Of a stretch of DNA of 38,976 nucleotides, positions 1,518 to 29,593 are shown in pieces. Below the pieces are notes generated by a model. The model was not told the DNA's origin, did no database searches, and saw nothing but the letters and a program-made list of their open reading frames with translations. The stretch comes from Candidatus Omnitrophota bacterium (GTDB lineage: Bacteria; Omnitrophota; Gorgyraeia; Gygaellales; Profunditerraquicolaceae). The position numbers and the translations under genes are program-made. How positions within the stretch are numbered: the stretch's first letter is position 1; the number at the start of each line of letters is the position of its first letter. Location of the stretch: positions 1 to 38,976 of the forward strand of contig JAKLQX010000034.1 of NCBI GenBank assembly GCA_022013085.1, in the 5' to 3' direction.

Positions 1518-1523
1518 TAAATG

Positions 1524-1635
1524 AGCGCTTAATTTACGATTCGCCGTAGGCGAAGAGTAAGTTAATGCGCGAATTTATCCCGACGAATATGTGGAAATTG
1601 TCGAAGATAATTTCCACATATCTTATGAGTCGGGA
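1524..1635 (+). repeat. Bipartite two-hairpin palindromic element, copy 1 (rplW-rplB intergenic)
   Basis: Hairpin 1 GCGC-TTAATTTAC...GTAAGTTAA-T-GCGC; linker GAATTTAT; hairpin 2 CCCGAC-GAA-TATGTGGAAATT...AATTTCCACATA-TCTTATGA-GTCGGG. Architecture shared with 18886-18993 (opposite strand) and 29488-29593. Confidence 0.8.
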
Positions 1636-4846: not shown

Positions 4847-4878
4847 ACACCCGCGCAACTCTTTTAAGCGCGGGGTGT
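4847..4878 (-). repeat. Bulged GC hairpin between fusA and tuf
   Basis: Minus strand ACACCCCGCGC-TTAAAAGAGTT-GCGCGGGTGT; near-identical plan to the rplJ-rplL hairpin, including the unpaired C. No U-tract follows. Confidence 0.7.
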
Positions 4879-4884
4879 TACTTT

Positions 4885-15894: not shown

Positions 15895-15957
15895 AACACC
15901 CGCGCAATTTTCGCCGCCTGGCGAACACCCGCACAATTCTGATAAGCGCGGGGTGTT
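15895..15957 (-). repeat. Alternative-pairing hairpin region between rplJ and rplL
   Basis: + strand: AACACCCGCGCAATT (15895) and AACACCCGCACAATT (15924) are direct repeats; both complement the single arm GCGCGGGGTGTT (15946-15957). TTCGCCGCCTGGCGAA lies between them. Confidence 0.65.
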
Positions 15958-16494: not shown

Positions 16495-17175
16495 TTAGCA
16501 AATAATCCTTAATCCCGGGTTCATGGAAGCATTGATACTCAAGCTCTTCACAAACTTCCCTTTTACTGATACAGGCCTAGCCTCATTAACCGCCTCAATA
16601 ACCTTAGAGGCATTGTCATTTAGTTGATCTTCGGTAAAAGACACCTTCCCTACTGATAAGTGCATTCCTCCCTGCTTATCTACGCGGAATTCAACTTTAC
16701 CTTTTCTTACATCTTCGATTGCTTTTGCGATATCATTAGTAACTGTTCCGGTTTTAGGGCTAGGCATTAGGCCACGGGGCCCGAGCACCTTACCAAGCTT
16801 ACTTAAATCCTTCATCATCTCTGGACTAGCAATAGCACAATCAAAATCAAGAAATCCCGCAGAAACTTTATCTATTAACTCTATACCCCCCACTAAATCT
16901 GCTTTTGCCTCTCTTGCCTGGCGCTCATGCTCACCTTTACAGAATACCGCTACACGCACCTTTTTCCCAGTTCCATGGGGCAATACAACTGTCCCGCGGA
17001 TCATCTGGTCACTCTTCTTAGTATCCACGCTTAAATTAAAATGCAGGTCGATAGAGCCATCAAACTTTGGCTTAGACAACGACTTCAATATTACAATAGC
17101 TTCTTTTAACTGATAAATTTTGTCTTGCTCTACCTGTTTGACTGATTCTTTATATCTCTTGCTTTGTGTTTTCAT
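16495..17175 (-). CDS. rplA: 50S ribosomal protein L1
   Basis: GTVVLPHGTGKKVRVAVF...VLGPRGLMPSPKTGTVT. Confidence 0.97.
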   Translation of the reverse strand: MKTQSKRYKESVKQVEQDKIYQLKEAIVILKSLSKPKFDGSIDLHFNLSVDTKKSDQMIRGTVVLPHGTGKKVRVAVFCKGEHERQAREAKADLVGGIELIDKVSAGFLDFDCAIASPEMMKDLSKLGKVLGPRGLMPSPKTGTVTNDIAKAIEDVRKGKVEFRVDKQGGMHLSVGKVSFTEDQLNDNASKVIEAVNEARPVSVKGKFVKSLSINASMNPGLRIIC

Positions 17176-17276
17176 CCCGCACCTTCTTTGTTATTCATTC
17201 GTTTTAATCCTCTACGCCTTTAAACATCTGAATATTCCACACCCCAAACATATTGAATTTTTAGAAGGTGCGGGAT
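17174..17276 (-). repeat. Start-codon-sequestering inverted repeat, copy A (rplK-rplA)
   Basis: Minus strand: TGA-TA-ATCCCGCACCTTC...(77 nt)...GAAGGTGCGGGATG; the final ATG is the rplA start. Confidence 0.8.
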
Positions 17277-17278
17277 TA

Positions 17279-17703: not shown

Positions 17704-18231
17704 CTATACCTTTTCCACCTGCCAATACTCTAATTCTACTGGCGTTGAACGGCCAAAAATAGATACACTGACCTTAACTTTACCTTTTTCAGGATAAACT
17801 TCTTCAATTGTACCGTTAAAATTCAAGAATGGGCCTTCGTTGACTCTTACCTGTTCACCTTTTTCAAAAACAACTTTCGGGGATGGTTTAGCTGCAGTTT
17901 CTTTAGTTCGCTTAAGAATACTATCCACTTCTTCTTTGGGTAATGCAACTGGCTTCTTGCCTAATCCGATAAAACCGGTAACCCCAGGAGAATTTTTAAC
18001 AAAAAGATAAGTCTGCTCACTTAAATCCATCTCAACCAATAAATATCCTGGGAAAAATTTTCTTTGGGTAATCTTCTTTTTACCAGAACGGACCTCTGAA
18101 ACCTGCTCCGTAGGAATAATCACGCTAGTAATTAAATCCTGCAAACCTTCCGCAGAGATTTTCTTCTCCAAAGACGCTTTTACCTTTTCTTCTATGCCAG
18201 TCTGCGTATGTATAACGTACCAGTTTTTCAC
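17704..18231 (-). CDS. nusG: Transcription termination/antitermination protein NusG
   Basis: [20 protein letters not shown]...FPGYLLVEM...PGVTGFIG...[21 protein letters not shown] start (plus strand cac 18229-18231). Confidence 0.97.
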
Positions 18232-18301
18232 CCCGCACCTTCTCCTTTATTCTTACCACCCCAACACCTTTTAGTATTTAAATATAAAGAAGGTGCGGGG
18301 T
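18230..18301 (-). repeat. Start-codon-sequestering inverted repeat, copy B (secE-nusG)
   Basis: Minus strand: TGA-ACCCCGCACCTTC...(46 nt)...GAAGGTGCGGGGTG; final GTG is the nusG start. Confidence 0.8.
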
Positions 18302-18493
18302 TCATTTAAAAATAGCGCTTAAAAACTTAGATAATCCTAAATCTACCACTCCTATAAAAACTGTCATTAAAGCTGTAACTACAATTACTAATCCCGTAGA
18401 TGCCAAAAGTTCGTGTCTAGTTGACCAAGAAACTTTATTTAATTCGCTTCTTACTTCTTTTAAAAAATTTACTGGTTTTGCTAAGATATTCAT
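18302..18493 (-). CDS. secE: Preprotein translocase subunit SecE
   Basis: 63 aa; FLKEVRSELNKVSWSTRHELLASTGLVIVVTALMTVFIGVVDLGLSKFL, between tRNA-Trp and nusG. Confidence 0.95.
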   Translation of the reverse strand: MNILAKPVNFLKEVRSELNKVSWSTRHELLASTGLVIVVTALMTVFIGVVDLGLSKFLSAIFK

Positions 18494-18614: not shown

Positions 18615-18720
18615 TAACCTCGCCCATAAACTTACCTAAAAATTTAATAAATTTTTAGGTGTTCGCACTTGATAAGTGCGGCCATGCAACTTATGTTTAC
18701 TTCGTTAATAAGTTGCGGCC
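18615..18720 (-). repeat. Bipartite-like element, degenerate copy (tRNA-Trp/rpmG gap)
   Basis: Minus strand: GGCC-GCAACTTAT-TAACGAAGTAAAC-ATAAGTTGC-AT-GGCC, then ACCTAAAAATTT/AAATTTTTAGGT, then AAGTTTATGGGCGAGG. Hairpin 1 matches copy 2; the outer stem of hairpin 2 is not preserved. Confidence 0.55.
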
Positions 18721-18873
18721 TTACTTAATTTCCTTATGCGGGGTGTGCTTATGACAGGCTCTATTGCAGAACTTGCTAAGCTCAAGTCTATCCTGATGCA
18801 ACTTTTTATTCTTAGTCGTCGTATAATTTCTATTTTTGCAAACCGTACATTCTAAAGTTATAGTTTCACGCAT
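18721..18873 (-). CDS. rpmG: 50S ribosomal protein L33
   Basis: Below the ORF-track cutoff; translates to [50 protein letters not shown], a canonical L33 with CxxC...CxxxC, between tRNA-Trp and tRNA-Thr. Confidence 0.95.
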
Positions 18874-18885
18874 ATATATCTTTCT

Positions 18886-18993
18886 TCCCGACTCATAATC
18901 TTGTATAAAATTTTATACTAAAATTTTATACATTCGTCGGGATAACTTCGGCCATCAAACTTATGTTCACTATTCGTTCCATAAGTTTGGGCC
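18886..18993 (-). repeat. Bipartite two-hairpin palindromic element, copy 2 (tRNA-Thr/rpmG gap)
   Basis: Minus strand: GGCC-CAAACTTATG...CATAAGTTTG-AT-GGCC-GAAGTTAT-CCCGAC-GAATG-TATAAAATTTTA...TAAAATTTTATA-CAAGATTATGA-GTCGGGA. Confidence 0.8.
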
Positions 18994-19001
18994 TCACTTA
19001 A

Positions 19002-19211: not shown

Positions 19212-19240
19212 AGTTTATACTACCTTGCGTTGATTGTCAA
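19212..19240 (-). promoter_or_regulatory. Sigma-70-type promoter upstream of tRNA-Thr/rpmG/tRNA-Trp/secE/nusG
   Basis: Minus strand TTGACA-(17 nt)-TAAACT (TATAAA overlaps); located in the only long gap before the translation superoperon. Confidence 0.7.
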
Positions 19241-19283
19241 GATATTTTTTAGATATTTTAAGCCACATAATAATTCAGCGAAA

Positions 19284-19340
19284 TCCCGCGGAGTGCGCCA
19301 AATTTGTTTTTAATAATTTGGCTCATATTACGAAGCAGGA
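19284..19340 (+). repeat. Hairpin-2-only copy of the bipartite element, downstream of rsmA
   Basis: TCCCGC-GGAGTG-CGCCAAATT...AATTTGGCTCA-TATTACGAA-GCAGGA, matching 29540-29593. Confidence 0.6.
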
Positions 19341-19345
19341 TATAT

Positions 19346-20143
19346 TTAATTTGATGTTTTCATGAGATCCGCAAACTCTTCAAGAGAAAGATCCTCCGGT
19401 CGCACATTCTTATCAATGCCTTTTTGGATAAAGAATGCATCGAGTTTTTCTTGGGGCACGAAACCTTCTAAACTATTCCTTAATGTTTTTCTTCTTTGGT
19501 TAAAAGCTTTACGAATTAGTTTAAAAAACGCATCTTCATCCTTAACTAAAACCCGTGGCTTTAGCCTCTTTCTTAAAGCCAAAAAGCAGGAATCCACCCT
19601 AGGTGCTGGGAAAAATGAGTTTCTCTTAATTTCAAAAATAATTTTAGGTTCTAAGTAATACTGCACAAAACAACTGAACGATCCATAATCTTTTGATCCC
19701 GGTGAAGCGGCTACCCTTTTGGCAAACTCTTTTTGCACAGTAATAAAAATTTCATCAATATAGTCGCGGTAGCCAATAAGACGCTGGATAATCGGGCTAG
19801 ATATATTGTATGGTATATTACCGATTACCTTTATTTTTTTCTTTATCTTATTATCAAGTAAAAACTTCTCAATATCAAATTTTAATATGTCCGCCTTGAT
19901 AACCTGACTATTTGTAAAACTAACCAACTGCTTATCTAGGATTGGATATAAACGATTATCGATCTCTAAAGCATAAACTTTTGCTGCTTCGCGCGCAAGC
20001 TCAACTGTTAAATCGCCTCTTCCTGCACCAATTTCTAAAATAATATCCTCAACCTTTAAATTGCAAGCGCGGATTATTTTTTTTTGGATATTTTTATCAA
20101 TAAGAAAATTTTGGCCTAGGCTTTTATTTGGTTTTGCGTACAT
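19346..20143 (-). CDS. rsmA: 16S rRNA (adenine1518/1519-N6)-dimethyltransferase
   Basis: KSLGQNFLIDKNIQKKI...ILEIGAGRGDLT...VIGNIPYNISSPI; KsgA/RsmA family. Confidence 0.95.
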   Translation of the reverse strand: MYAKPNKSLGQNFLIDKNIQKKIIRACNLKVEDIILEIGAGRGDLTVELAREAAKVYALEIDNRLYPILDKQLVSFTNSQVIKADILKFDIEKFLLDNKIKKKIKVIGNIPYNISSPIIQRLIGYRDYIDEIFITVQKEFAKRVAASPGSKDYGSFSCFVQYYLEPKIIFEIKRNSFFPAPRVDSCFLALRKRLKPRVLVKDEDAFFKLIRKAFNQRRKTLRNSLEGFVPQEKLDAFFIQKGIDKNVRPEDLSLEEFADLMKTSN

Positions 20144-21177: not shown

Positions 21178-22066
21178 CTAAATACTTGGCTAACCTTTCT
21201 TGCAATCTCTTCTCAAATAAATACGCCTGAATCTTTTCCTGGGACTGGGATAGATTTAACTGCTGACTGCCTAAAATATTCTCTAATTTAAATACATAGA
21301 ACTGCCCGTCAATCTTTACTGGATTACTAACCTCCCCTAACTCAAGCTTAAATACGGTTTGCTCTATCTCTTTACGTAAATTTTCACCCTGCCAAGCAGA
21401 TAATTTATCAACGGTAAAAGGATATTTCGAAGCCAAATCTTCCAATTTATCTCCTCGACGCAAATTATAACTAACCGCGCTAGCCACGGAGTCATCCTGA
21501 ATGACAATAACCGTAAGCTGCCGCTCTTCAGGTTTTAAAAACTGCTGTTTATTCTCATTAAAAAAAGAAGTGATCTCATCCGGACGAATAATTATTTTAA
21601 CGCGCACCTTCTCTTCAACAACGGCATACATAAGCATCTGCTCGCGAATTTTATTCTCTAAATCTACCTGTGCCAAGCCTTGCTTAGCTAAATCATTTTC
21701 AAACTCCGCCTCTGTGCCATAGCGCTTCTTAATATCATTAATTTTTGCCTGAATCCTAGCACTCTCAATAACTATCTTTTCATTTCTAGCCTGCTGAAGC
21801 ATGAGGCGATCTTCAATCAAGCGCTGTAATAAATCCTGCTTCATTGCACTAACTTTCTCTTCTAATTCTTTGCCTTTAAATTCCCGAGCAAACTGCACAC
21901 GTATAAAACTTGAGAAATCATTCAGGTCTTTTTGCGTGATGACGTCATTATTCACTACTGCTACTACTTTGTCTTCAGCAAAAAGGCAGTAGCTAGGGAT
22001 CAACACACAAAATAAGATAAAAAAATGTAACCCTAAAAATAACTTAAAACTAACTTTCCTCTTCAT
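21134..22066 (-). CDS. SurA/PpiC-type periplasmic peptidyl-prolyl isomerase
   Basis: Signal peptide MKRKVSFKLFLGLHFFILFCVLIPSYCLFA, VAVVNNDVITQKDL (SurA_N), rotamase-like tail FKLELGEVSNPVKIDGQFYVFKL. Start set at 22066. Confidence 0.85.
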   Translation of the reverse strand: MKRKVSFKLFLGLHFFILFCVLIPSYCLFAEDKVVAVVNNDVITQKDLNDFSSFIRVQFAREFKGKELEEKVSAMKQDLLQRLIEDRLMLQQARNEKIVIESARIQAKINDIKKRYGTEAEFENDLAKQGLAQVDLENKIREQMLMYAVVEEKVRVKIIIRPDEITSFFNENKQQFLKPEERQLTVIVIQDDSVASAVSYNLRRGDKLEDLASKYPFTVDKLSAWQGENLRKEIEQTVFKLELGEVSNPVKIDGQFYVFKLENILGSQQLNLSQSQEKIQAYLFEKRLQERLAKYLDELKKQSYIKIIAS

Positions 22067-23957
22067 TAAACACACCTGCTTTCTTAAAATTAACAATTGC
22101 TTCCTTAAGCAACCTACAGTAAAGATCAAAACCTACAGCGGCAATGAAACCATGCTGTTGCTGGCCCAGAAGATTCCCGGCGCCACGAATCTCAAGATCT
22201 TCCATAGCAATATTAAATCCTGCTCCCAAATCACTATTGCTCTCTATCGCCTGCAACCTTTTCTTAGCAACCGCTTCCAACGGAGCATTATGAGGAATCA
22301 TAAAATAAGCGTAAGCCGAACGGTTAAACCTGCCCACCCGGCCGCGTAGCTGATGCAGGTCTGACAAACCAAACATATGCGCGTTATTCACAATGATGGT
22401 ATTGGCATTGGGAATATCGATTCCAGATTCAATAATCATTGTGGAAACTAAAACATCAATATCCCCGTTTATAAAATCCGACATTACCTTTTCTAATAGC
22501 TTAGCGTTCATCTGGCCATGCGCAATAGCAATACGTACATTAGCCCCCAAGCCTTGTGTAACCTTCTGCTTAACTTTTTCCAGGCCAAGAATACGATTAT
22601 GCAAAAAAAACACTTGGCCAGAACGCGCCAGCTCCCGCGAAATTGCCTGAAAGACTAAATCAGCGTCATATTCTACCACAACCGTCTTAATAGGCAATCT
22701 ATTTTGCGGCGGCGTATTGATTACAGAAAAATCTTTTGCCCCCATTAAGCTCATATATAAAGTACGCGGAATTGGCGTAGCAGTCAAAACAAGTATATCT
22801 GTAGAAAGTTTAAGCTTCTTTAATTTTTCTTTAGCCTTAACTCCAAAACGCTGTTCCTCATCAACAATAACCAGGCCCAAATCCTTAAAACTTACATCTT
22901 CAGAGAGAAGCCTGTGTGTGCCTATAACAATATCTACATTACCAGTTTTTAAGTTTTTAATAATCTGGCCTTGCTCGACTTGAGTTTTAAAACGGGAAAG
23001 CATCTGCACATTAACCGGAAAATTCTTTAAACGCATAGTAAAATTCTTATAGTGTTGTTCAGCTAAAATAGTCGTGGGCACTAAGTAGGCCACCTGCTTG
23101 CTATCCATCACCGCCTTAAAAGCAGCACGCATAGCTACTTCAGTCTTGCCGTATCCAACATCACCACAAAGCAAGCGGTCCATAGGTTTAGCTGATTGCA
23201 TATCGGTTTTAACTTCCCGCATTGCTTTAGCCTGATCAGGAGTTTCTTGGTAGGGGAATGTCTTTTCAAAATCTAACTGCCAATCCGTATCGCAAGAAAA
23301 CTTAAAACCTGAGCTTGCCAAACGCATTGCTTGCAAACTCAATAACTCCCAAGCTAACTTCTGGATACCTTTACGTGCACGCTGCTTAATCCTCTGCCAC
23401 TCCTTATTTCCTAGACGGTAAAGTTTAGGCCTACGCGCGCAAAATGCGATATACTTTTGCACCAAGTGCATCGCCTCAACCGGAACATAAAGTTTTTCAT
23501 TTCGATCGTATTCAATTACTATATGATCTTTAAGATGATCCTGAAATTTAACTTTTTGAATGCCTAAAAATTTACCGATACCATGCTGATTATGCACCAC
23601 AAAATCACCAACACTTAAATCTACAAAATTTTTTATCGGAAACTCTTCGCTAAATACCGATCTTTTAATACTAGTTGGCTTCTTAAGCGGCAAAATAATA
23701 ACAATATTATGCTGCCAAAGCGCCTCGCCGTTATCAGGATTAAATGTCTTAAGAGTTAACACTGTTTGATTATCTAATTCAATACGAATGGGCAACTCAA
23801 AAGACACCGGAAAGATGTCAATAATCATTCCGCGACGCGCGAAATCACCCTCCCCTAAAACCTCATCTTGCCTCTTATAACCAAAATCAACCAGGTTTTT
23901 AGATAATACCTCTAAATCAATATCTTGTTGGGAATATAGTTTGAGGGATTTAAACAT
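22050..23957 (-). CDS. mfd: Compact transcription-repair coupling factor (Mfd)-like translocase
   Basis: RID-like SVGDFVVHNQHGIGKFLGI, helicase motifs LLCGDVGYGKTEVAMRAAF, VIVDEEQRFGVKAKEKLK, LTATPIPRTLYMSLMGAKD, STMIIESGIDIPNANT, QLRGRVGR, GAGNLLGQQQHG. Start set at MFKSLKLYSQQD; lacks much of a canonical Mfd. Confidence 0.9.
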   Translation of the reverse strand: MFKSLKLYSQQDIDLEVLSKNLVDFGYKRQDEVLGEGDFARRGMIIDIFPVSFELPIRIELDNQTVLTLKTFNPDNGEALWQHNIVIILPLKKPTSIKRSVFSEEFPIKNFVDLSVGDFVVHNQHGIGKFLGIQKVKFQDHLKDHIVIEYDRNEKLYVPVEAMHLVQKYIAFCARRPKLYRLGNKEWQRIKQRARKGIQKLAWELLSLQAMRLASSGFKFSCDTDWQLDFEKTFPYQETPDQAKAMREVKTDMQSAKPMDRLLCGDVGYGKTEVAMRAAFKAVMDSKQVAYLVPTTILAEQHYKNFTMRLKNFPVNVQMLSRFKTQVEQGQIIKNLKTGNVDIVIGTHRLLSEDVSFKDLGLVIVDEEQRFGVKAKEKLKKLKLSTDILVLTATPIPRTLYMSLMGAKDFSVINTPPQNRLPIKTVVVEYDADLVFQAISRELARSGQVFFLHNRILGLEKVKQKVTQGLGANVRIAIAHGQMNAKLLEKVMSDFINGDIDVLVSTMIIESGIDIPNANTIIVNNAHMFGLSDLHQLRGRVGRFNRSAYAYFMIPHNAPLEAVAKKRLQAIESNSDLGAGFNIAMEDLEIRGAGNLLGQQQHGFIAAVGFDLYCRLLKEAIVNFKKAGVFNEEES

Positions 23958-23978
23958 AATTTTTAAAAAAGAGGGAAA

Positions 23979-24045
23979 AATAGGGGACGTCCTGTTAAGG
24001 GACACCCTATTTTATAGGGTGTCCCTTTTTAGGACGTCCCCTATT
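23979..24045. repeat. 67-bp nested palindrome between secDF and mfd (REP-like)
   Basis: AATAGGGGACGTCCT-gtt-AAGGGACACCCTAT-ttt-ATAGGGTGTCCCTT-ttt-AGGACGTCCCCTATT. Confidence 0.85.
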
Positions 24046-24047
24046 TT

Positions 24048-28313: not shown

Positions 28314-28645
28314 TACTTAATCTTTCTATAAAAACAACTTCTGTTGCCTGTGTGGCATGCTGGCCCTAGCTGCCGCACTTTGATTAAAAGCGCATCCATA
28401 TCACAATCATAAGCTATTGATTTTATAAATTGGAAATGCCCGCTAGTCAGCCCTTTGACCCAATATTCTTTTCTTGAACGCGACCAAAAACAACTTTTTC
28501 CTAATTTTAAACTCCTGCGCAATGATTCTTTATTCATATAAGCAACCATTAATACTTCGTTGTTCTTATAATCCTGAATAACCGCAGGTATTAATCCGTT
28601 TTTATCAAACTTTAAACTTGACAATTTAAATGTTGCTTTTTTCAT
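28313..28645 (-). CDS. hisI: Phosphoribosyl-AMP cyclohydrolase (no HisE domain)
   Basis: [25 protein letters not shown]...[18 protein letters not shown]...[27 protein letters not shown]. Confidence 0.95.
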
Positions 28646-28718
28646 CCCGCACCTTCCTTTTTAATTAATTCATTAAACTTTATACCTTTAATAGTTGAAT
28701 ATTTTGAAGGTGCGGGAT
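28644..28718 (-). repeat. Start-codon-sequestering inverted repeat, copy C (hisF-hisI)
   Basis: Minus strand: TGA-ATCCCGCACCTTC...(49 nt)...GAAGGTGCGGGATG; final ATG is the hisI start. Confidence 0.8.
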
Positions 28719-29474
28719 TCATAATCTTACACCTACTCCTCTTTGGCTTAAATACTCCTTTACTTGTTTTACAGAAAACTCACTGTAATGAAAAAGTGAG
28801 GCGGCCAAAGCAGCATCTGAACCGGTTTTAGTAAAAACATTATAGAAATCTTCAAGCTTCCCTGCGCCTCCAGAAGCAATCACTGGAATATTAACTTTTG
28901 CGGTTATTGCCTTAGTCAACTCCAAATCATAGCCATTTTTTGTACCATCATAATCCATGCTGGTCAAAAGGATTTCGCCTGCTCCCAGCCGGGCAGCTTT
29001 TTCTGCCCATATCAAAGCGTTAATTCCCGTAGGAGTTCTACCGCCATTAATATAAACCTCCCAGATGTCACCCTCTTTTTTAGCATCAATGGCCACCACA
29101 ATACATTGGCTACCAAATTTCTTTGCTGCGCTGCTAATTAACTCTGGGAACTTAACTACTTGAGTATTTATGGATACTTTTTCTGCACCCGCATTTAGAA
29201 TATTTTTTATATCTTTGATATCCCCAACTCCGCCGCCGACTGTAAAAGGCATGAAAATATTTTGGGCTATTTTTTCAACTAAAGCAAGTAAGGTTTTTCT
29301 ATTCTCAAAACTAGCGGTAATATCCAGGAATACTAACTCATCAGCTCCTTGCGCGTCATAAACCTTGGCCACCTCGACCGGATCCCCGGCATCGCGCAAG
29401 CCTAAAAACTTAACTCCTTTAACTACGCGGCCTTCTTTAATATCCAAACATGGAATAATACGTTTAGTCAGCAT
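28719..29474 (-). CDS. hisF: Imidazole glycerol phosphate synthase, cyclase subunit
   Basis: [37 protein letters not shown]. Confidence 0.97.
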
Positions 29475-29487
29475 TTAATGTTAATGA

Positions 29488-29593
29488 ACGCTTAACTTAC
29501 GAGCACGTTGTGTGGGTAAGTTAATGCGTGAATTAATCCCGCTGAGTGTGCCAAAATTATTTACATAATTTTGGCACATATTACGAAGCGGGA
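29488..29593 (+). repeat. Bipartite two-hairpin palindromic element, copy 3 (lipoprotein-hisF gap)
   Basis: ACGC-TTAACTTAC...GTAAGTTAA-T-GCGT-GAATTAAT-CCCGC-TGAGTG-TGCCAAAATTAT...ATAATTTTGGCACA-TATTACGAA-GCGGGA. Confidence 0.8.

Follow-up and report, generated by a model that had tools for sequence, protein, structure and literature searches.

A two-hairpin intergenic repeat family of Omnitrophota, probably a mobile DNA element of the REP or IS200/IS605 kind

Why does the gap between the ribosomal protein genes rplW and rplB of an Omnitrophota bacterium contain two tandem hairpins, and why do similar hairpins recur nearby with different sequences in their stems? The window that we analyzed is a whole contig of 38,976 bases (G000:C16) from a genome of 1.39 Mb (108 contigs, 91% complete). 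An initial annotation, made from the sequence alone, described three such elements in the window. All three are real, lie where it placed them, and have the skeleton that it described. But its total of three was too low: there are five recognisable copies, at 1524–1635 (+ strand), 18886–18994 (−), 29487–29593 (+), 18620–18721 (−), and 19228–19340 (+), which we will call copies 1, 2, 3, 5, and 4, respectively. The neighbors of copy 1 are rplW and rplB, and copies 2 and 5, as read from the sequence, flank rpmG.

Copy 1 is an element as annotated, but it reaches further 5' than had been proposed. An outer stem of hairpin 1 has its 5' arm, TAAAT, at 1518–1522 (+), next to the rplB start codon; this arm pairs with ATTTA at 1573–1577, the two arms co-vary over copies, and the 5' arm is probably host target DNA. 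Hairpin 1 proper (1523–1570, +; identified from DNA folding, the covariation of helices 1 and 2, and motif counts) consists of GA (1523–1524), the stem S1 (GCGC), the stem TTAATTTAC/GTAAGTTAA, an apical GA..GA mini-hairpin, a bulged T (1566), and S1'. The next segment (1571–1577, +; from DNA folding and outer-stem pairing), which had been taken for a plain linker, is GA and then ATTTA, and the guide-like ATTTA is the 3' arm of the outer stem. Hairpin 2 (1578–1635, +; from the covariance model, covariation, motif counts, and DNA folding) reads TCCCGAC, GA, AT, stem 2 (ATGTGGAAATT at 1589–1599 and AATTTCCACAT at 1609–1619), the bulge ATCTT, AT, GA, and GTCGGGA. The initial annotation was right that the internal loop of hairpin 2 is asymmetric, but not about its makeup, which is a GA/GA tandem mismatch, 2 base pairs, and a one-sided bulge of 5 nucleotides.

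With its outer flank, copy 2 spans 18886–19000 (−), in the gap between a tRNA gene and rpmG; its outer stem is imperfect (TAAGT/AGTTA), and its structured strand is the sense strand of the neighboring genes. Copy 3, upstream of hisF, spans 29481–29593 (+) if we include its outer flank TTAAT (29481–29485), which is paired with ATTAA (29532–29536). Copies 2 and 3 were identified with the covariance model and by folding. Copy 5 (18620–18721, −; covariance model E = 9.5e-9) is a diverged copy in the gap between rpmG and tRNA-Trp, a site with orthologs in 24 genomes, and its outer stem (TAAGT/ACTTA) takes in the last codons of rpmG. In copy 4 (19228–19340, +), which adjoins the gene for rRNA adenine dimethylase (19346–20143), hairpin 1 is eroded and hairpin 2 is intact (19283–19340); it is a 75% repeat with copy 3, matches the element's pattern, and has E = 8.9e-7 with the covariance model. 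Folded as single-stranded DNA, each of the three main copies is more stable, on either strand, than every one of 200 dinucleotide shuffles (z = −8.0 to −10.0). The folding energies of copies 1–3 are −32.8, −25.9, and −32.4 kcal/mol on the annotated strand and −29.4, −24.0, and −30.6 kcal/mol on the other strand.

The initial annotation suggested a covariance-model search, and a model built from the three copies that it described found several strong copies elsewhere in the same genome, as well as matches in 48 of the 58 genomes of our search of relatives (counting the source genome). An exact pattern had matched nothing else in the genome, which would imply a cluster limited to the window, but the copies found by the covariance model show that this was an artefact of the pattern. 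In an even sample of 155 genomes from across the phylum, 56 carry copies, including families outside the class of the source genome, and many genomes of the source family lack the element. Three further genomes have 101, 66, and 56 copies; the maximum of 101 is in Hainich-H51-bin333. When we ran a degenerate pattern over 85,462 species genomes, it matched 88 stretches; nearly all carry Omnitrophota or Omnitrophica in their titles, a few have just "bacterium", and two records have Nitrospirota. Two genomes with a Nitrospirota title have 27 copies (L273, in G063) and 3 copies (L279, in G064), which could reflect mislabelling, mixed bins, or transfer. As a control, the best covariance-model score in 98 kb of E. 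coli was 18.9 bits, versus 118 in the window. We also considered that the element might be carried by viruses, but its pattern is absent from the viral contigs.

The initial annotation did not recognise a described family, and neither did we: with the covariance models of Rfam 15, only tRNAs reach the gathering score, and there is no meaningful match at E ≤ 1. Our search of the literature on repeats of Omnitrophota or Omnitrophica found nothing relevant. As far as that literature shows, this phylum-wide family of Omnitrophota has not been described before, and the phylum would have had no described repeat family of its kind until now.

We read the layout of the element from 168 distinct copies (on the annotated strand). 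It is about 75–165 nucleotides, with two hairpins in tandem. Hairpin 1 has, in order, an outer stem (N5), GA, S1 (4 base pairs), an upper stem (often TTAACTTAC), GA, an apical mini-hairpin, GA, the other arm of the upper stem, a bulge (T, AT, or TT), S1', GA, and N5'. Hairpin 2 has a TCCCG-type stem, GA, 2 base pairs, stem 2 (xxxxAAAATT), a loop, stem 2', a bulge of five nucleotides (ATNTT), 2 base pairs, GA, and the closing CGGGA. The bulges of both hairpins are one-sided and conserved. The GA/GA pairs are strand-specific and have a pyrimidine-GA-purine context. They are found at the foot of hairpin 1 (126 copies), at its top (53 copies, with GA/AA in another 18), and in hairpin 2 (91 copies). 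These motifs predict a specific protein that binds single-stranded DNA. A kink-turn reading of the GA pairs does not fit, as by inspection, 2 base pairs separate the bulge from the GA. The 2-base-pair step of hairpin 2 is AT/AT (43), GT/AC (20), or GC/GC (2), that is, compensated, or else half paired (AT/TT, 11). In nearly all copies, the 5' foot is TGAG or RTGA(N). The ends of a typical copy are unlike (GA followed by GGCC or GCGC at one end, CGGGA at the other), without terminal inverted repeats. Variants include short forms that lack stem 2 and others with a simple GC hairpin in place of hairpin 1.

Some loci have more elaborate arrangements. At L155 (1340–1492), L187 (350–539), and L252, a single hairpin 2 has a hairpin 1 on each side, which makes a symmetric composite; the composite at L155 has the GCGC type on the start side and the GGCC type on the stop side. 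At L292 (2145–2359, in G059), two copies form a direct tandem. And in the copies of G058 at L313, L317, L319, L322, L323, L324, and L327, an extra hairpin starting ACCCTCTGSAATT is nested in hairpin 2, after TTAC or near the loop.

That the paired sequences change yet stay complementary, as the initial annotation stated, holds across 114 distinct copies: 31 of the 32 base pairs vary on both sides and remain paired. Changes on both sides account for 656 cells of the alignment, versus 157 ± 14 in shuffles. The covariation score is 0.462, versus 0.126 ± 0.004 for shuffled alignments, and sliding the partner over by one, two, or three columns removes the signal (0.03–0.05). Since the alignment follows the covariance model, these numbers lean towards structure, but they differ from the controls by a very wide margin, and the sequences range far beyond the three copies of the model. 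Covariation this strong could lead to the element being confused with a structured RNA.

The outer stem, which is outside the model, extends hairpin 1 into the host flank and co-varies as well (TAAAT/ATTTA, TTAAT/ATTAA, TCAAT/ATTGA). All five bases are paired in 116 of 145 copies, versus 35 ± 5 if the linkers are shuffled, and none of 2000 linker shuffles gave more than 54, with the proviso that the copies are related and hence are not independent events. The guide could come to match each flank in several ways: the flank may itself belong to the element, there may be selection of the target, or one arm may be copied onto the other by template switching. Because linker and host flank match copy by copy, hundreds of natural examples are available for testing the guide/target idea from IS200/IS605.

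Comparing syntenic regions, as the initial annotation had also suggested, showed that presence is patchy at orthologous sites. Between rplW and rplB, 3 of 24 readable genomes have an element, of differing types. Upstream of hisF (26 genomes), there are four clear elements and two remnants, and one of these is in the opposite orientation. Between rpmG and tRNA-Trp (24 genomes), there are 12 filled sites, 4 partial or degenerate ones, and 8 empty ones. In two of the partial copies, hairpin 1 is gone almost exactly, and G007 and G004 have hairpin 2 in common but differ in hairpin 1. (At this site, the orthologous copies L353 and L354 have near-identical versions of hairpin 2 and different versions of hairpin 1: a module exchange.) The ends can be read by comparing the empty site of G014, which is AAATGA followed by TCAAGAATATAGAGCAAATTT, to the filled site of G009, which is AAGTGA followed by CTTATCCCG...GTCGGGA and then TCAAGGATATAGAGCAAATTT; there is no target duplication beyond a common GA. 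Between rplJ and rplL, clear copies are present in only 2 of 30 genomes. A congeneric pair differs here: G072 is filled and G073 is empty, with an insert of about 90 nucleotides just before the conserved Shine-Dalgarno sequence. The ends of the G072 copy are TAATGA...TCATTA, with a possible TAA duplication.

G047 has 17 near-identical copies at unrelated loci, with unrelated outer flanks. Their common block runs from the complement of the Shine-Dalgarno sequence and fades about 20 nucleotides past CGGGA; in these copies the right boundary is extended. The Shine-Dalgarno sequences vary from copy to copy, so they are most likely the host's. We considered that the element brings its own Shine-Dalgarno sequence, but this seems unlikely: the motif after CATTGA varies, and the empty site of G073 has its own.

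By these data, the element is mobile: it has been gained and lost, and in at least one genome its amplification was recent. A single pair of sites does not fully distinguish insertion from precise loss. The copies are dispersed between genes and are absent from most orthologous sites, and they keep strict Watson-Crick helices, GA/GA pairs, and bulges while the sequences of the helices diverge. That some copies lie between ribosomal protein genes also bears on how well operons tolerate insertions.

We propose that this is a non-autonomous mobile DNA element, akin to REPs and IS200/IS605 elements, whose two tandem hairpins are recognised as folded single-stranded DNA; we consider this to be probable. 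The strand with the GA motifs would be recognised, in trans, by an HUH/Y1-type or similar nuclease. Cleavage on the side of hairpin 1 would come after RTGA, at the end of the host flank (TTAATGA, TTAAATGA, or TCAATGA), and on the side of hairpin 2 it would follow CGGGA. By analogy to the guides of IS200/IS605, pairing with the internal linker would select the flank, and pairing with CCCG would select the right end. Later deletions would remove hairpin 1, or sometimes the entire element.

Like IS200/IS605 elements and their non-autonomous derivatives (PATEs), the element has two hairpins on one strand, unlike ends, and no inverted repeats or evident duplication. At G009/G014, one strand has a hairpin at each end, and we see no terminal inverted repeats, no target site duplication, and a retained 5' target; at G072/G073, there may be a TAA repeat. 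Also as in these elements, the left-flanking target is retained and the right end is arranged as putative guide, hairpin, and putative cleavage site. Guide-like internal bases may pair with the putative cleavage sites: the outer stem co-varies, but the flank could be either a target or part of the element. In IS608, cleavage sites are selected by pairing with guide tetranucleotides (PMC8266576, PMC6006769). In contrast to these families, the left guide would lie 3' of hairpin 1 instead of 5', few nucleotides separate the hairpins, the putative guide changes together with its target between copies, and we found no parent element.

The element also resembles REPs, BIMEs, and REPINs, which go with RAYT (TnpA_REP) transposases: these are extragenic, have tens to about a hundred copies, and form imperfect hairpins in which a bulge or mismatch is conserved, and the bulge of the E. 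coli REP is needed for TnpA_REP activity (PMC8266576, PMC6006769). Other shared features are a tetranucleotide at the 5' foot, strand-specific features, and the occurrence of both singlets and inverted composites. Unlike REPs, our element has two different hairpins per unit, tandem GA/GA mismatches, far more covariation among the copies of one genome, and no transposase gene beside its copies, and its tag is TGAG rather than GTAG or GTGG. In other words, it is a high-copy extragenic imperfect palindrome with a conserved mismatch, and we found neither the GTAG/GTGG tag nor a flanking RAYT (at 46 Y1 loci). The CGTC-tagged REPs are also dispersed palindromes with no dedicated adjacent transposase, but each is a single short palindrome with the CGTC tag, and the relevant passages of that report do not name Omnitrophota (PMC3733652). 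Integron attC sites are also folded single-stranded recombination sites with unpaired bases that mark the strand, but our element lies beside housekeeping genes and outside of cassette arrays, and by visual inspection of the copies and the neighboring genes, we saw no attC cores (RYYYAAC/GTTRRRY). The best reading is a mobile hairpin of the REP or IS200/IS605 kind with an unusual copy-by-copy match of flank and linker.

Which enzyme might mobilize it? The initial annotation suggested looking for a Y1/RAYT transposase. The genome does encode one Y1 (IS200-like) transposase, but a partnership with the element is not supported: no copy lies alongside this gene, and none of the 46 Y1 loci that we examined had a copy within 1.5 kb on either side. 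(The Y1 gene of the source genome, at L002 2900–3690 in G000:C18, has direct repeats TTTATAGACAGTGTACGTAAT...GGTGGTTAC on both sides, probably its own repeat family.) A scan for GA/GA hairpins at 31 of the 46 loci found nothing relevant. Between neighboring copies, the longest reading frames were only host-like genes and no transposase, and we found no autonomous relative with the same ends and encoding TnpA, either between copies or at the 46 Y1 loci. Y1 genes are present in 49 of the 58 genomes from the search of relatives. The number of copies is not correlated with the number of Y1 genes (Spearman −0.001), and no Y1 was detected in G037 (94% complete), which carries 10 copies; the presence or absence of the two is associated (p = 0.005), with confounding by completeness and kinship. 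We rejected linkage to RAYTs given that none of the 46 Y1 loci examined has a copy. Together with the absence of the GTAG tag and copy numbers that are not correlated with the number of Y1 genes, this gives no support for membership in the REP/RAYT family.

A variation on this proposal is a DNA-guided element whose internal 5-nucleotide guide pairs with the adjoining host target and is rewritten or re-selected for each new target; the enzyme that moves the element would not be part of the known pairing of REPs and RAYTs. We think that this is unlikely.

No more likely, in our judgment, is a cis-acting RNA in operon mRNAs (a leader or an element for processing or stability). Most copies are directly upstream of a Shine-Dalgarno sequence or a start codon, and one orientation dominates: 114 copies have hairpin 1 towards the start and hairpin 2 towards the stop, and 26 are reversed. 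This would be natural for an RNA, but both orientations do occur, and the element is patchily present at the same gene. Furthermore, since most copies have the one orientation and the neighboring genes mostly point the same way, the GA-bearing strand, which is the more stable one, is antisense to the neighboring genes in about 80% of copies. Mispairs also argue against RNA. In the columns of the model, there are 3086 Watson-Crick cells, 55 G·T, and 48 A·C; as distinct contexts, there are 38 G·T and 29 A·C. Counts per copy are 48 versus 20 in a first set and 13 versus 11 in a second set, so parity is imperfect. tRNA stems from the same loci gave 36 G·T versus 11 A·C, a control with register noise. 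Because G·T and A·C mispairs are about equally rare and the GA strand is mostly antisense, we argue for a role at the level of DNA; selection on RNA is unlikely. The initial annotation had preferred a mobilised single-stranded DNA hairpin or a protein-binding DNA structure over an mRNA element, and the numerous copies, their patchiness at orthologous sites, their recent amplification, the strong covariation, and the slight preference for G·T all agree with this. The findings that it had named as refuting did not turn up: there are further copies, covariation is strong, and no Rfam family matches. Our preferred reading, a mobile hairpin, accounts for neither the 114:26 bias towards starts nor the exact adjacency to Shine-Dalgarno sequences, and the extended right boundary in G047 also counts against it.

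The element might instead be a chromosomal protein-binding or cruciform site that is selected in place, with a BIME-like function, and is not presently mobile. This would explain the strict palindromy on both strands, with its conserved mismatches, and the old copies at rpmG that are common to several species. However, gain is seen (the 17 near-identical copies in G047 and the filled and empty sites of the congeneric pair), and many genomes of the family do without the element. So we consider this to be slightly less plausible than an RNA.

Less likely still is a MITE that has terminal inverted repeats, duplicates its target, and depends on a DDE transposase. The symmetric composites at L155 and L187 and the ends of the G072 copy, with their possible TAA duplication, would fit, but typical ends are unlike and lack terminal inverted repeats, and G009/G014 shows no duplication beyond the common GA. 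Equally improbable is that it is mainly template switching, and not selection, that keeps the arms complementary, by correcting quasi-palindromes as the DNA replicates: double-sided changes do dominate and wobble intermediates are rare, but correction would erase the GA/GA mismatches and the bulges, and both are conserved. Such correction may be an addition to the mobile-hairpin explanation, not a replacement for it.

The window contains other hairpins. A second hairpin repeat, ACACCCGCRCAA...TAAGCGCGGGGTGTT, occurs in the intergenic gaps at 4847–4879 and 15925–15957 (88% alike), and similar hairpins are found upstream of rpmG and rplL in relatives, so this might be a second small repeat family. 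Three long-range intergenic hairpins, ATCCCGCACCTTC...GAAGGTGCGGGATT, at 17169–17277, 18225–18302, and 28639–28719, resemble an element with hairpin 2 only. Finally, at 23977–24047, at the start of the reading frame at 22050–24005, there is an inverted repeat (AAAATAGGGGACGTCC...) whose 34-nucleotide arms are 91% complementary, with a 3-nucleotide loop.
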